35,498 nucleotides of DNA from Chloroflexota bacterium. Its GTDB lineage: Bacteria; Chloroflexota; Anaerolineae; UBA2200. The translations under genes and the position numbers were made by a program. The notes below the pieces were generated by a model that was not told where the DNA came from, did no database searches, and worked only from the letters and a program-made list of their open reading frames with translations. This document shows positions 14,749 to 21,358 of the stretch, in pieces. Each line of letters begins with the position of its first letter. Within the stretch, counting starts at the first letter, position 1. The DNA lies in assembly GCA_014360905.1 (NCBI GenBank), contig JACIWW010000029.1:1-35498 (forward strand), read 5' to 3'.

Positions 14749-14851
14749 GGTTCCTCCAATCTTTTGTCTGCAAGAGTGCGTGCCCCCTTCCCGGGGCAAC
14801 ACGAGGCGTATCTTTCGTTTTTTGGTTTACGTCATTGATTATAGTGAAATT

Positions 14852-14879
14852 ATTATAACGGAATTCTCTTGTTTGGCAA
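14852..14879 (-). promoter_or_regulatory. Promoter for the DUF3786 gene
   Basis: Minus strand TTGCCA (14874-14879), 16-base spacer, perfect TATAAT (14852-14857). The transcript would begin near 14846 with a leader of about 100 bases. That leader contains a six-pair GC-rich hairpin (TGCCCC/GGGGCA, 14781-14798). Confidence 0.55.
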
Positions 14880-14968
14880 GCAGCAGATACCGAACAATGA
14901 CAATTCGGAGTACTGGGTGGACTTCCAGCAATTGAGTTACAAGAAAGTAAACGCGGATTGCGTGTATG

Positions 14969-14997
14969 TTGACAAATTGACACTTTCGTGGTAAGAT
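14969..14997 (+). promoter_or_regulatory. Promoter for the giant surface protein
   Basis: A perfect TTGACA (14969-14974) is followed after 17 bases by TAAGAT (14992-14997); transcription would start near 15004, about 62 bases before the ATG. A second TTGACA at 14977 has no -10 partner at suitable distance. It lies divergent from, and about 100 bases away from, the DUF3786 promoter. Confidence 0.55.
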
Positions 14998-15065
14998 AGT
15001 AAAGAAGATAAAGCCCCACGAACAGTGCCAGCTATCACAGTGAATTGCACAAGGGAGGAGGAGAA

Positions 15066-18000
15066 ATGCCCAAGGCACTAAGACTTGTAGTTGCATTGAG
15101 CGTTGTCGTTTTTTTATTTGTAGCACTGGCTGGACTCGTTGCAGAATCGCCCTCCGTTGCCCAGGTGGAGGCCACGGCCGATGGAAGCGTTTCTGTCCAG
15201 ACCCAAGTGGGAGATCCTCAGGCACTAGATCCTTTCACCAGATTGCCCCCCGAAGACCCTCCGTACACCAAATCCGAACCCATCTTTAACCCTCAACTCC
15301 TCCAAGCCCCGGTCAAGGACTCGGTGACCTGGAATCCGCTTTTTATGTCCGAGTTCGAGACCTTAGATGGCAACCAGGCTCTTGGTCTGTACAAGCAGAT
15401 CCACGCAGGCACGACCAATGCGACGGAGAAGGTGTGGTTCCGGATGTGGTACGAACCGTGGCACTGGGATAAGGATGTGAACGCGAATGGCGTGCTCGAT
15501 CTCCACCCCACAGCGCAGATGCCCTACACGCAGAGCAAGGGCACGAGGTATGACGAATGGTATCCAGCCGTGATGCAGGAATTCACCTACATGCTCATGG
15601 AGCCCAAACTCGTGTCGCAGAAGCCGGAACCGCTGGCTGGCCCGGTAGATCATAGTTTGGGTGGCACTAGCTTCGTCTTCCCGGTTGGGATTCGCCAGGA
15701 CCAATTGACAAGTCCAATTGGTGAGGGGCTGACCAACCTGGATGCCGATGATGATGGTGTACCAGACATTGTGCACGTGGAAAGCGAGTTGACCCTGTTC
15801 GATCTGACCAAGATCGCCGCTGACTTCAATGGAAATAGCCGAATTGACCCATTGGATAGAGATACGATTGAATTGAATGGGAATGAGCTGGTCATTTTCC
15901 GCTTGGATAGCAAAGCGCTCTATCAAGGGAGTAGAGTGCGGTTCTTGGACTACTGGATGATGGTTGATGCTGTGTATGAGCGCAGTGCTGATATCCGAGT
16001 TTGGTATACAGGCGACACAATCACGGATCTAATGACGGGTTATCGCACGAAAACCATAGGTGTCGGGGATATGCTCCTGTGCGGGCGTGTGGGGCCTCTG
16101 CAGCAAATCCGGGCGGTGGCTAACGGCGGGTCAGGCACGAACATGTGCGACTTCCCCACCGGCCCCTTCTTCATCTACCTGGAGAACATAGATGCAGCAG
16201 AGGGTAGAGCGCGCTTGATTGTAGGGCGTGCCTTGGGTGCTACCTGGAGCGGCATGGAAGACTCACCTGGTCAGCCAGATTTGCGGCAAGGGGACCCATG
16301 GTTCCTCAAACGTTTCTATGTGGATGGTCATGAATACAATGTTGTGGCGATCAAGACGGAAAACGGCGCGGGGGTGGGCATTGACCGCCAGTGCACGCTG
16401 GATGCGGACGGCGATAGGGTCATTGACTCTGACCTGTGGCCACCACCTGTAGATCCCACGCGGTTCAAATTCATCACTATCCGCACGCCGGTTCCTAAGA
16501 CGAGCAGTTACGAGGATATAGGCGGGGGGTATGTCATCGATCAGCATTCGGTGCGCTTGCAGTCTTACGCAGCAGGGCAGCACCTGTCGGTAATGCCACC
16601 TTACAATTATCCGCACTATATTCTTTTGGACATACAAGCGATCACGGATTCCTTTACCTGCAGCGAGGAAGATGTGCAATACCTAGGACCTCTCGTAGAG
16701 GCGCCTCCGGTCGAGTACTCCTACGTGGCGGAGGACAAGAACTGGCAGTTCTTGGGCGAGCTCAAGGAGAAGTATGGAGATCACGCCCAGGACGAGTTTT
16801 GGTACGTAGAACAATTCCACACCTTGCCATGGGAGTATACGGAATTCGTCCTGCCTGATGTGCGTCCTGATCGTACAGATGACCTCTATCTCGTGACAAG
16901 TGCTTTCCTCGCTCCACAAAGCGAAGCGGTGCTGTGGACGCAAGATGTGTCAGCCAATACTACCCTGGCCTATCACCTGCACTGGGATGCACAGAAGCAA
17001 TGCTGGGTGCGCGATGCAAGCGTGAACACCATGCCCCAGGGCTGGAAGCCGCGCCTCAAGTTCTGGTTCGATCCCGCTGACAGCGGAAGGAACTGGAAGT
17101 ACAAGACCAACTATGAGCGAGGAGGTGGCTTACGCCTCTACGGCTTCCGCAACGAAGGTCCTGGCGACAAGGGTGTTGTGGACCCAGGCTCACGTACACT
17201 CACACCTAGCTATCCGGTGGAAGTCTTGCCCTATACGAATTCCTGGGCGCCTTTCAATCCACAATTGCCACAGGCACCGCCCAAGGACTCGCTGACCTTC
17301 AACCCGGCTTACATGGATAGGTACAACTACAGCGAGGGCGATGAGCTGGTGAGCCTATACAGGCAGCTCTCCATCCGCGAGCACGATGCGCGCGAAAAGG
17401 TTTTCCTGCGCATGTGGTACGAGCCGGAGTATCTGGACAAGATCCTGAGGGTGAGTTCGAGCGCGCCGTACGTGCCCACCCAGGTCTATACCTTCCCGGC
17501 GCTGATGCAGGAATTCACCTACATGTACCTGGATACCCGCGACCAGCCTGCTAGTGCGCAGCCGGGTTCCAGCTCCTTTGCTTTCCCGATAGCCACTAAT
17601 CTAACCCAACTGCCCATGCCCGATCCTACTACTGGGGATTTACCACCCCCATTATTGCCCAGCTTTGGGTATGGCCTGACCACTTTTGATGCCAACTTCG
17701 ACGGCTTCCCCGAGGCGGTGCAGATTCACAGTGAGAAATCCTTGGCTACTCTGACGCATATCTATGCCGATTTCAACGGCGATGGGCTGATCGGCATGCT
17801 GGATAAAGACGATACCGTCCTGAACGGCAATGAGATGCTCATCTTTGCTCTGGAATCCATCCGCTTACAGCGTGGGCAGAGTGTGCAGCTCCTGGATCAC
17901 ATGATCACCTTGGACAATATTTCACCTGGCACCGCGGAGTTGCAGTTCTGGTACACGGGTGGTGGCTTGCATGCATTGGGTGGCGGACAGTATTCGCTAC

Positions 18001-20141
18001 ATCCGGATAAAATTGGCTCGCCGGTTACTTTGCGAACAGGGCAAATGGCTATTGCCGATGGGACGAGGCGACTGGTACGGGTTCTGCCTGCAAGTGGCAA
18101 CCTTGGCAGGACGGATGGAGCTTGGTTCGTCTTCGTCAACGATGTATACAGTGAACCTTGGACGTCTCCAGCAGAAGAGTATGTTTCTGTCATTATTGGG
18201 CGGGCGCTAGGTTGCACACACAGTGCTATGGACAATGCCCGTGGTGGGCATGATCTGCAGCCGGGCGATCCCTGGTACCTGAAGCGCTTTTTCGTGGATG
18301 GGCATGAGTACAATGTAGTGGCAATCTATACTGCACGAGCGCGCCAGACTAACCCTGGTGATGAGACCTACGAGTTCAAGTACATCACCATCCGCACGCC
18401 AGTGCCGAAGGTCAACTTTGTTAACTACGAGGATTCGCAGAAGTTGGAGGGTTACTATCCAATTACAGGCCCAGTGGTGTCAGTTTTGCCACCGTTCAAC
18501 TATGCTCACACAGAAGTGGAGGATATCCAAGCATTTCCTGAGAAAGAATCCGAGGTGTTTGTCTTTGGCAATGCGCTTTTCCAAGATGAGGATTGCCGCG
18601 GAGGCCTGTTCCCGGGGGCAATACCGCCTTATGAGATCCGTATCCTCTACGAGGATAGGGAGCCGCAGTTCTTCGGCGAGCTGAAGGAAAAATACAATGA
18701 CGATACCCGGAGAGAACTGTGGCAGACCGAGCAGTGGCACACGCTGCCCGACCAGTACACGGAATTGCAGTTACCTATCATACAACAGCCTGAGGGCTGG
18801 CAGTACCTGTATCTGCTCACCAGCGATTGGGAGTCGGAGCAGAGCCGCGTCTACTACTACGGATGCCCAGATTACAGCCAGAATCAACTGCATGCCTGGA
18901 ATATGGCTATCCCTGCGACCAACATGGTGATAACGGGCACTGGCCAAACTTTCTTCAATGCCAGTGTGTGGCAGCGGCTGCGGGTCAAGTTCCTGTACGA
19001 CCCTACAGACCAGGATGACATCTATGTGAACAGGCTAGATGGATACAATACCCTGCGTGTGTACGGCAGCGGCATCCACAGTGTGCGAACGTGGGGCGTG
19101 CCGGCGCCGACACCGACGCCCACACCTACACGTACGCCGACTCTTACGCCCACGCCGACGCTTGTGCCTGGCCCGACAGGCAGCATCAGTGGCACGGTCA
19201 GGCTGTATGCCCGCACAAACCACAGCGGCGCAATCGTGAGCGCCGGATCAGTAAGCGCAGTCACTGGTAGCGATGGGCGCTTTGTCCTCTCTGGAGTTCC
19301 AGTCGGTACCTACAGTGTTATGGCTGCCATGCCTGGTTACCTGTATGCTTTGGAACCAGGTGTAGTAGTAACGGCAGGCATGACCACTCCTCTGCGCACT
19401 GTGCAGTTGCTGGGTGGTGATGCATGCGGGCCGGGCGAGATTCCTCCGGATTGCGTGGTCAATTTGTATGACATGGTCTTCATCGCTAGGAGGTATGGTA
19501 CCTGCCCACCCAGTGACCCGCGCGCAGACATCAACGCCAATGGGCAAGTAGATATCTTCGATTTGGTTGCAGCAGGATGGGCCTATGGTAAGTCTTGTCC
19601 TCAGCCTTGGGTGTCACCGCCATCGGGTGCTTCGCTGGCGGCAGCACTAGCCACTTTGTTCGTTTCACCAGCGTATCAAAGCGGCCTAGAGGTGGACGAT
19701 CTGCTCACGGTTACCTTGGAATTGCAGGATGTCCACAATCTCTATGGCGTGGACGCGCAACTGGAATTCAACCCTGATGTATTGGAAGTTGTGGATTCCG
19801 ATCCATTCAAAGAAGGGGTGCAGATTACGCGCGGGACGTTCCCTGATCCGGCGCAAGGGGCTGTGTCAGCGGAGGAAGCAGACAATACCGAAGGACTGGT
19901 GCGCTATGCAATAAGTCTAGCCGATCCTGCACCGCCTGCCGAGGGCAGTGGTACACTGTGCAGTATCACCTTCCGCGCCAAGGCTCATGGGTATAGCCGG
20001 TTGCATCCTAGTTCTGTGCAATTGGTAGAGGCAACGAGCGGTGCTTCTATGCCGGTGGTGGCCGTTGGTGGCTCGGTTTACGTCGGACCAACGAATATGC
20101 TTTACCTACCGCTTGTCTTAAAGTCGGGCGTGCCACGTTAG
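15066..20141 (+). CDS. Giant secreted protein with duplicated module, dockerin-like and cohesin-like domains
   Basis: A 1691-residue exported protein. GGGAGGAG lies six bases before the ATG. A signal peptide covers residues 1 to about 34. Two copies of a ~630-residue module follow (about 63-695 and 716-1339); both share KDSxTxNP, KVxxRMWYEP, GDPWxLKRF, VDGHEYNVVAI, ITIRTPVPK and FxGELKEKY. Asp-rich, calcium-type loops (DADDDGVPD, DFNGDGLIG) lie inside them. Then come a Thr-Pro linker (~1344-1372), a carboxypeptidase-regulatory-like beta domain (SGTVRL...SGVPVGTYSV), a dockerin-like region (~1452-1512) whose second loop, DINANGQVDIFD, is a full EF-hand-type loop while the first is degenerate, a cohesin-like domain (~1530-1672), and a YLPLVLKSG tail. 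It probably sits on the cell surface as a structural or binding protein. I do not recognise the repeated module; no glycosidase catalytic domain is evident. Confidence 0.85.
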   Translation: MPKALRLVVALSVVVFLFVALAGLVAESPSVAQVEATADGSVSVQTQVGDPQALDPFTRLPPEDPPYTKSEPIFNPQLLQAPVKDSVTWNPLFMSEFETLDGNQALGLYKQIHAGTTNATEKVWFRMWYEPWHWDKDVNANGVLDLHPTAQMPYTQSKGTRYDEWYPAVMQEFTYMLMEPKLVSQKPEPLAGPVDHSLGGTSFVFPVGIRQDQLTSPIGEGLTNLDADDDGVPDIVHVESELTLFDLTKIAADFNGNSRIDPLDRDTIELNGNELVIFRLDSKALYQGSRVRFLDYWMMVDAVYERSADIRVWYTGDTITDLMTGYRTKTIGVGDMLLCGRVGPLQQIRAVANGGSGTNMCDFPTGPFFIYLENIDAAEGRARLIVGRALGATWSGMEDSPGQPDLRQGDPWFLKRFYVDGHEYNVVAIKTENGAGVGIDRQCTLDADGDRVIDSDLWPPPVDPTRFKFITIRTPVPKTSSYEDIGGGYVIDQHSVRLQSYAAGQHLSVMPPYNYPHYILLDIQAITDSFTCSEEDVQYLGPLVEAPPVEYSYVAEDKNWQFLGELKEKYGDHAQDEFWYVEQFHTLPWEYTEFVLPDVRPDRTDDLYLVTSAFLAPQSEAVLWTQDVSANTTLAYHLHWDAQKQCWVRDASVNTMPQGWKPRLKFWFDPADSGRNWKYKTNYERGGGLRLYGFRNEGPGDKGVVDPGSRTLTPSYPVEVLPYTNSWAPFNPQLPQAPPKDSLTFNPAYMDRYNYSEGDELVSLYRQLSIREHDAREKVFLRMWYEPEYLDKILRVSSSAPYVPTQVYTFPALMQEFTYMYLDTRDQPASAQPGSSSFAFPIATNLTQLPMPDPTTGDLPPPLLPSFGYGLTTFDANFDGFPEAVQIHSEKSLATLTHIYADFNGDGLIGMLDKDDTVLNGNEMLIFALESIRLQRGQSVQLLDHMITLDNISPGTAELQFWYTGGGLHALGGGQYSLHPDKIGSPVTLRTGQMAIADGTRRLVRVLPASGNLGRTDGAWFVFVNDVYSEPWTSPAEEYVSVIIGRALGCTHSAMDNARGGHDLQPGDPWYLKRFFVDGHEYNVVAIYTARARQTNPGDETYEFKYITIRTPVPKVNFVNYEDSQKLEGYYPITGPVVSVLPPFNYAHTEVEDIQAFPEKESEVFVFGNALFQDEDCRGGLFPGAIPPYEIRILYEDREPQFFGELKEKYNDDTRRELWQTEQWHTLPDQYTELQLPIIQQPEGWQYLYLLTSDWESEQSRVYYYGCPDYSQNQLHAWNMAIPATNMVITGTGQTFFNASVWQRLRVKFLYDPTDQDDIYVNRLDGYNTLRVYGSGIHSVRTWGVPAPTPTPTPTRTPTLTPTPTLVPGPTGSISGTVRLYARTNHSGAIVSAGSVSAVTGSDGRFVLSGVPVGTYSVMAAMPGYLYALEPGVVVTAGMTTPLRTVQLLGGDACGPGEIPPDCVVNLYDMVFIARRYGTCPPSDPRADINANGQVDIFDLVAAGWAYGKSCPQPWVSPPSGASLAAALATLFVSPAYQSGLEVDDLLTVTLELQDVHNLYGVDAQLEFNPDVLEVVDSDPFKEGVQITRGTFPDPAQGAVSAEEADNTEGLVRYAISLADPAPPAEGSGTLCSITFRAKAHGYSRLHPSSVQLVEATSGASMPVVAVGGSVYVGPTNMLYLPLVLKSGVPR
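15254..17150 (+). repeat. First copy of the ~630-residue surface module
   Basis: It runs from the PYTKSEPIFNPQL segment to GGGLRLYGF. Compared with copy 2 it carries an extra Asp-rich insert (DADGDRVIDSD) before FKFITIRTPVPK. Bounds are approximate and set by eye from matching landmarks. Confidence 0.75.
17212..19080 (+). repeat. Second copy of the ~630-residue surface module
   Basis: It runs from the PYTNSWAPFNPQL segment to NTLRVYGSG, with the same order of landmarks as copy 1 (KDSLTFNP, RMWYEPEYLDK, DFNGDGLIGMLD, GDPWYLKRFFVDGHEYNVVAI, FFGELKEKY). The copies are clearly diverged, so the duplication is old. Confidence 0.75.
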
Positions 20142-20153
20142 ATGAGGTATTTC

Positions 20154-20210
20154 CAGCAGGGGATAGAGCTCCGCGCTAGGCAGTGCAGCCGTTGGGAGCT
20201 CACCCTGCTG
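20154..20210 (+). promoter_or_regulatory. Long intergenic hairpin between the two surface genes
   Basis: CAGCAGGG (20154-20161) pairs with CCCTGCTG (20203-20210). Inside it GAGCTCC (20166-20172) pairs with GGAGCTC (20195-20201), giving 15 pairs with one asymmetric bulge. A run of five T begins at 20221, ten bases past the stem, so it is not a standard terminator. It ends 18 bases before the AAGGAGGAG of the next gene. It may act as a leaky terminator, RNA-stability element or translation modulator. Confidence 0.55.
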
Positions 20211-20239
20211 AGGCAATTACTTTTTGTAAGGAGGAGTCA

Positions 20240-21358
20240 ATGTCCAGAAAAATTAATCGAAGTGTCCTGTTGCTGTTGGTGTGCTTCATGCTTGTAGCGT
20301 CCTTGCCGCTTTCCTCGGCTCTAGCGGAAGCAACTATTGTGCTGGTGGATCCACCGTCAAGCACAGTGAATCTGAATGATACGTTTACCCTGAACATCAA
20401 GGTGGACACCGTAACCAATCTATATGCAGTGGATATCCGCATCACCTTCGATGCGACCAAGTTGGAGGTGCAGGACGCGAATCCCAGCCTGGGTGGAGTG
20501 CAGATTGAGCCCGGGACTTTTCTCAATCCAGCGCAAGGCTTTATGATTCAGAACGTGGCGGACAATTCCACGGGTAAAATTCAATATGCCTTTACCCTAC
20601 TCTCCCCTGCGTCGGCCGTGAGCGGCACGGGTGTATTGGCCCGCATTACGTTCCGGGCCAAAGCTACGGGCACTGCCCAGATTACATTTGACAGCGTGAC
20701 GCTATCCAATGATCAGGCTCAGCCAATCGTTGCCACGCCGATGCCCGGGTCTGTTACAGTTCTACCAGCAGGTACGCCTACGCCCACAACAGTACCAACT
20801 GGTACGCCGGTACCACCTACTGCTACGCCTGTTGGGACCCCCGCTCCAACAGTGACGGCAGTACCACCACCTGCAGGCGTTGGTTTCCCGTATGTGGTGC
20901 AATGGGGCGATACGGTCTTTGGCATAGCACGATGCTTTGGCCTGCCGCCGGAGGCGATCATCCGCGCGAACAACTTGGTCAATCCCAACCTGATTCGTGT
21001 TGGCCAGATTCTGATCATACCCGCGCTGCCGGCACCGCCTCCAGGCCCGACCATGTACGTGGTGCAACCAGGGGATAACCTCTACCGCATCTCGCTGAAA
21101 TTTCATGTGCCGATTGAGGCTATCATTGCGGTCAATCGCATTGTCAATCCCTGGTACATCCGCGCCGGTCAGATTCTGATCATCCCAACGGGTGCGCCGC
21201 CAGTTCCTCCTGCCACACGCACTTACATCGTGCAACGTGGGGATACGGTGTGGTCCATCGCGGCCATGTTCCGTGTGACGCCTTGGGCGATTATCAGCCT
21301 AAACAATCTGGCCAATCCTAACTTGATCTTTGTTGGGCAACCCTTGTTGATACCTTAG
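20240..21358 (+). CDS. Secreted cohesin-like protein with three LysM domains
   Basis: A 372-residue exported protein. AAGGAGGAG lies four bases before the ATG, and the protein starts MSRKINRSVLLLL. The signal peptide likely ends at ALA29. Residues about 32-172 form a cohesin-like domain (VDTVTNLYAVDIRITFDATK, GTFLNPAQGF, ITFRAKATGTAQITF) clearly related to the cohesin at the end of the preceding protein. A Thr-Pro-rich linker follows (~175-214), then three LysM domains (~215-263, 272-318, 328-372). Each has a YVVQxGDTxxxIA start and a N-L-x-V/A-GQxLxIP end. LysM binds N-acetylglucosamine-containing polymers such as peptidoglycan. The protein therefore looks like a wall-bound receptor exposing one cohesin. 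It follows the giant protein by 98 bases, with a hairpin between. Alternatives: a generic LysM surface protein whose cohesin binds something else. Confidence 0.88.
   Translation: MSRKINRSVLLLLVCFMLVASLPLSSALAEATIVLVDPPSSTVNLNDTFTLNIKVDTVTNLYAVDIRITFDATKLEVQDANPSLGGVQIEPGTFLNPAQGFMIQNVADNSTGKIQYAFTLLSPASAVSGTGVLARITFRAKATGTAQITFDSVTLSNDQAQPIVATPMPGSVTVLPAGTPTPTTVPTGTPVPPTATPVGTPAPTVTAVPPPAGVGFPYVVQWGDTVFGIARCFGLPPEAIIRANNLVNPNLIRVGQILIIPALPAPPPGPTMYVVQPGDNLYRISLKFHVPIEAIIAVNRIVNPWYIRAGQILIIPTGAPPVPPATRTYIVQRGDTVWSIAAMFRVTPWAIISLNNLANPNLIFVGQPLLIP

Follow-up and report, generated by a model that had tools for sequence, protein, structure and literature searches.

A conserved gene pair of Anaerolineae-type Chloroflexota probably hangs a giant exported protein on the cell wall through a LysM-borne cohesin

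The window, as the whole 35,498-nucleotide stretch of DNA analyzed here is called, comes from a Chloroflexota bacterium and carries two adjacent plus-strand genes that are separated by 98 bases and lie 3' of a TTGACA-N17-TAAGAT promoter. The first encodes P1, in which an export signal is followed by repeat 1, repeat 2, a Thr/Pro linker, an X-module, a dockerin and a cohesin; the second encodes P2, a much smaller protein with one cohesin and three LysM domains. Both open reading frames, which an earlier sequence-only reading had picked out, were confirmed. P1 starts with the ATG at 15066 and its stop ends at 20141; the best start of P2 is the ATG at 20240, after AAGGAGG, and its stop ends at 21358. 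The N-terminal export signals of both proteins were judged by eye. The remaining scanned genes of the window are of housekeeping or transport type. That reading had stated that the window holds no glycosidase; none was found by Pfam among the 17 window proteins scanned. The features are as follows:

14969..14997, + strand: promoter of P1, TTGACA - 17 bp - TAAGAT, 10/12 consensus positions
15066..20141, + strand: P1, 1691-aa exported protein (ORF, Pfam and our own HMM)
15210..17156, + strand: P1 repeat 1, ~640 aa, with DxDxDG-type loops (own HMM)
17190..19082, + strand: P1 repeat 2, 39% identical to repeat 1 (own HMM)
19182..19409, + strand: X-module (Pfam CarboxypepD_reg, 7.9e-10), P1 residues 1373-1448
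19434..19610, + strand: dockerin, P1 residues 1457-1515 (own HMM 4e-27, alignments, homology to the Dockerin_1 domain of a protein on contig C22)
19680..19991, + strand: P1 cohesin, residues 1539-1642 (Pfam 24.1 bits, exactly at the cut-off of 24.1; model)
20240..21358, + strand: P2, 372-aa exported protein with a cohesin and three LysM domains (ORF and Pfam)
20354..20758, + strand: P2 cohesin, residues 39-173 (Pfam 4.8e-14; 53.2 bits and, separately, 55.9 bits)
20891..21355, + strand: the three LysM domains of P2, in three stretches (Pfam 1.5e-46; own HMM)

The promoter, 5' leader and ribosome site of P1 show striking conservation in five genomes of the family. The segment at 14850-15110 of the window, which holds the promoter and the leader, is unusually strongly kept across genera and is possibly a regulatory leader. 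Codon bias was considered as a sign of high expression and discarded as uninformative (0.70 for P1 vs 0.69 for the other genes).

Three quarters of P1 consist of the two tandem ~640-residue repeats, which, like the X-module, had escaped the sequence-only reading. No Pfam family covers the repeats and, as judged from sequence, they are an undescribed family. They contain calcium-loop-like motifs, with weak FG-GAP and EF-hand matches, and Pfam detects no CBM in P1. The large domains are beta-rich in the predicted structure (repeat 2: pLDDT 87.9, pTM 0.90). Foldseek searches of the PDB and of viral models with repeat 2 gave no clear or confident match; the best DALI-scale matches are Methanosarcina S-layer proteins, 3u2g (Z 4.2, 119/631 residues) and 3u2h (Z 3.0), at scores far below the reliable level. 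Homology of the repeats to S-layer proteins by sequence was also rejected: PF07752 gave nothing over its cut-off in 249 genomes and nothing in 56 repeats.

A short tail of the form [YFW]LP[LI][VI] lies near the end of several LysM-less cohesin proteins of this genome (the C-terminus of P1 in the window; L067:2425-3012; L068:6674-7282; L070:7302-9248) and is perhaps a sorting or anchoring tail. The YLPLV tail was dropped as a genome-wide motif, with pattern counts near control.

According to the sequence-only reading, P1 has a dockerin-like and a cohesin-like domain close to its C-terminus, whereas P2 combines one cohesin-like domain with three LysM domains. Pfam bears this out for the cohesins (PF00963), both of which meet the curated cut-off, and for LysM, but misses the dockerin: there is no Dockerin_1 (PF00404) match at residues 1457-1515, whereas homologous dockerins of the same genome pass the cut-off. 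Homology, alignments and the structure model nevertheless argue that the dockerin is real, because: i) residues 1348-1518 of P1 are 47% identical to the C-terminus of the C22 protein, whose Dockerin_1 passes the cut-off; ii) most P1 relatives have two canonical DxNxDGxVNxxDL loops at this position; and iii) the region superimposes on crystal structures of X-module-dockerin (X-Doc) dyads. In P1 itself the second calcium loop is canonical and the first has a 6-residue insertion with two Cys. This insertion occurs in the window and in a sister genome, and the genus as a whole has an altered first loop in the P1 dockerin.

A Foldseek search with the model of residues 1365-1691 (pLDDT 88.2) places X-Doc chains from type II complexes at ranks 1, 2, 21 and 28. 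Superposition on 4u3s_B extends over 140 residues across both modules (Z 16.7, rmsd 2.0 Å, 27% identity), and the family profile matches the X-Doc of CipA/ScaA at 1e-17. The CarboxypepD_reg domain is therefore the X-module of an X-Doc dyad. This Ig-like module, directly 5' of the dockerin, is packed with it in the model as one dyad, as in type II X-Doc. An NCBIfam anammox S-layer match was rejected as evidence for an S-layer, scoring 45.7 bits against a cut-off of 1400 and only in the X-module region.

The same model supports the cohesin of P1, with Z about 17 against many cohesins. Its matches to cohesins of type I, of type II and of non-cellulosomal origin are of similar quality, and no type is therefore assigned. 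The cohesins of P1 and P2 are 39% identical. Among the cohesin proteins found in this genome, P2 alone also carries LysM. By its architecture, an exported cohesin joined to a wall-binding module (LysM), it qualifies as an anchoring scaffoldin; the earlier proposal of wall anchoring by LysM is supported as its likely role.

The gene pair is conserved beyond the window. Of 249 genomes from the class, about 25 have a P1 relative, and those with a stated source are Chloroflexota-type MAGs. No P1 was found outside the class: a search of 400 genomes across the phylum gave three matches, each of them again within it. In 12 genomes, which represent five families (f1, f2, f3, f9 and f49), the direct neighbor of P1 is a cohesin-LysM gene; in one of them (G168) this neighbor precedes P1. 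Another 17 cohesin-LysM genes, not next to a P1, were examined, and for six of them, spread over five additional families, an X-Doc gene lies only a few kb away. These neighbors are quite different proteins, for example, a subtilase and cohesin-X-Doc adaptors. Altogether, 18 of 29 cohesin-LysM genes, from 10 families, have an X-Doc gene nearby, whereas the density of dockerins in the window's own genome would predict about 3% per locus. The counted genomes are related, so that the binomial P value for this contrast is far too small to serve as a formal test. The other 11 have no X-Doc gene within the flanks examined.

Five P1 relatives lack both the X-Doc and the cohesin. They come from three genomes of one genus (G028, G062, G090), from G014 and from the Caldilineae contig L086; L086 may be close to G014, and X-Doc-less P1 represents at least two lineages. 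All five end in an undescribed ~95-residue domain, S (example loci of P1 and neighbor: L084:9779-17335, L099:9782-17806, L086:1114-7258), that matches no Pfam family over its cut-off, and the neighboring gene in each encodes three to four S. In the genus of three genomes, the S-bearing neighbor also has three LysM domains. The end of P1 and its neighbor thus change together, which suggests that they evolve as partners. Unlike dockerin-cohesin logic, the S lineages carry the same module on both proteins, and both may bind a third party. Because S is present on both sides, the swap by itself does not prove dockerin-cohesin binding.

The genome as a whole encodes a small cohesin-dockerin network. 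Six cohesin genes were found, namely P1, P2, two on contig C32, one on C3 and one on C23, and every one of them carries just a single cohesin. Besides P1, there are five intact dockerin proteins, one with SpoIID and Amidase_2 on C22, two glycosidase-like on C23 and C31 (the latter by eye), and two on C3, one with malectin and one with CBM96 and an esterase. A sixth dockerin, on C32, is a remnant (L067:3074-3298, 74 aa); its second half is intact and it lies directly beside a cohesin gene, apparently as a decayed dockerin-cohesin pair. Counting this remnant, a dockerin gene stands beside a cohesin gene in three places other than the window. No SLH domain was found in the genome. The combination of a multi-cohesin scaffoldin, a CBM and dockerin-borne cellulases that marks a cellulosome was not seen either, P1 having a single cohesin. 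The description of the system as non-cellulosomal thus holds for the window and the gene pair, but not necessarily for the whole cell, in which two of the other dockerin proteins are glycosidase-like. A denser locus is seen in another genome (G011, contig C59; L152:4931-17850), where about nine dockerin and/or cohesin genes run through 13 kb and some of the cohesins have a C-terminal membrane segment and a basic tail.

These data led to a model for the gene pair that we favor with moderate confidence: P2 is a small LysM anchoring scaffoldin that holds the X-Doc of P1 on peptidoglycan and thereby displays the P1 repeats on the surface. The three LysM domains would hold P2 on the peptidoglycan, and its single cohesin would capture the X-Doc at the C-terminus of P1, and perhaps also other X-Doc proteins of the cell. 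The two ~640-residue domains of P1 would then face outward, on the surface without a membrane anchor. The P1 cohesin, which follows the dockerin, could serve as a second socket for another P1 or another X-Doc protein. The modules, the type II likeness, the conserved gene pair and the co-variation of the partners come from sequence comparison or structure prediction; from them we infer the binding of the P2 cohesin to the P1 X-Doc, the binding of LysM to this wall and the surface role of P1. Docking of P1 on P2 is strengthened by the match of the X-Doc to type II anchoring dockerins. In cellulosomes, it is the X-Doc dyad that binds the anchoring scaffoldins (PMC5141474).

What P1 does on the surface is a separate question. 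A role as a major surface protein or an S-layer-like one would fit how big P1 is, its large tandem domains rich in beta structure, its conserved promoter and the absence of any membrane anchor. The literature passages covered describe, by microscopy, layered envelopes in related Chloroflexota and an outer layer of Litorilinea that resembles an archaeal S-layer, and no identification of the protein of that layer was found in them. As a tentative extension, which we think rather unlikely to hold in full, P1 could be the main S-layer-like protein of its lineage, with LysM as the foot on peptidoglycan and a cohesin-dockerin joint between this foot and P1, a joint that is swapped as a set for S-with-S in sister lineages.

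The best-surviving alternative, still improbable in our view, is that P2 mainly anchors enzymes (SpoIID-amidase, glycosidase-like) and that P1 is a second scaffold in a small cellulosome-like or wall-remodelling system. The five other intact dockerin proteins of the genome, mostly glycosidase- or esterase-like, fit this. So does the exported C22 protein with SpoIID, Amidase_2, Big_7 and a C-terminal X-Doc (L071:4572-9074), which is conserved in G082 and G017 and whose X-Doc is the closest to that of P1; the conserved protein is also seen at L072:2212-6501 and at L066:2440-7047, where it has a cohesin in addition. This peptidoglycan-active protein may dock on the LysM-cohesin. However, the partner that gene adjacency and co-variation indicate for P2 is P1 and not the enzymes. 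The dockerins of C3 (both) and C23, moreover, look different along their helices, and two of these three have a neighboring cohesin gene of their own. Since the genome encodes other dockerin-bearing proteins, P2 as an anchor of P1 may also serve several further clients.

A little less probable is self-assembly of P1, the chain of the sequence-only reading, in which the dockerin of one molecule binds the cohesin of the next to give a chain or lattice and P2 is only the foot. Almost every P1 with an X-Doc or a cohesin does have both, together at its C-terminus, and in other families several cohesin-X-Doc genes stand in a row beside a cohesin-LysM gene (for example, L160). However, with both modules at one end, P1 would make a poor linear chain of large repeats. 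Furthermore, the P1 and P2 cohesins fall into separate clades, that is, distinct orthologous sets, and shared specificity is therefore not necessary; the P1 cohesin is also less conserved within the family (52-53% vs 61-63% for P2). These differences between the two sets hint that the cohesins have different partners.

That the cohesins are merely structural beta-sandwiches (spacers or ligand-binding) and the dockerins vestigial products of domain shuffling in surface proteins is quite unlikely: the altered first dockerin loop of the window and the S lineages with one module on both proteins would fit, but the X-module and dockerin are kept together, both calcium loops are canonical in most relatives, and dockerin and cohesin genes repeatedly adjoin.

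The outer layers of Anaerolineae-type Chloroflexota have been seen by microscopy and are poorly explained at the protein level; in these bacteria, type II-like X-dockerins and LysM-cohesins together look like a general means of attachment to the wall. The modules of P1 and P2, being small, lend themselves to in vitro tests, and their coordinated exchange between lineages provides a natural control for which partner binds which.

Nearly all work on cohesin-dockerin pairs concerns cellulosomes, in which SLH or sortase provides the anchor. The anchors named in a 2025 review are SLH, sortase and some further domains, with no mention of LysM (PMC12484212), and a literature search found no paper on cohesin-LysM proteins. 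Cohesins and dockerins outside cellulosomes have been described from a variety of bacteria and archaea (PMC9012536). In ANME archaea, dockerins occur on S-layer proteins, where a role in fixing functions at the cell surface has been proposed; unlike in P1 and P2, the dockerin is partnered by an S-layer domain and LysM is not described (PMC9012536). The S-layer proteins of Methanosarcina with tandem DUF1608 (PF07752; MA0829, PDB 3u2g) resemble P1 in being exported and having two tandem large domains, but PF07752 matches neither P1 nor its relatives by sequence. Another parallel is Archaeoglobus fulgidus, an organism not known for cellulosomes that has a few cohesins and dockerins; the P1 cohesin model matches its cohesin 2xdh (TMt 0.82). 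Bayer in 1999 and Peer in 2009, both cited in PMC9012536, are said to have described these non-cellulosomal proteins, and a cohesin gene is presumably adjacent to a cohesin-dockerin gene there as well. We know of no LysM or P1-repeat relative in that system.

The closest system is the cellulosomal type II anchoring of CipA/ScaA by SdbA, OlpB and Orf2p, and of ScaA by ScaB in A. cellulolyticus (PDB 2b59, 4u3s). Shared with it are the X-module packed on the dockerin, the cohesin fold and the proposed hanging of a large protein on the surface. The insertion in the first calcium loop of the P1 dockerin is a further likeness, as an insertion, there of 4 residues, also enlarges this loop in the type II dockerin of A. 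cellulolyticus ScaA (PMC5141474). In contrast, P2 uses LysM rather than SLH or sortase and has only one cohesin, and P1, unlike the clients of cellulosomal type II anchors, has no CBM, enzyme or cohesin array and carries two large domains of an undescribed family. Thus, the P1-P2 pair would be an anchoring scaffoldin system in kind, and its novelty lies in the use of LysM as the anchor, in the giant client and in the swapping of domains.
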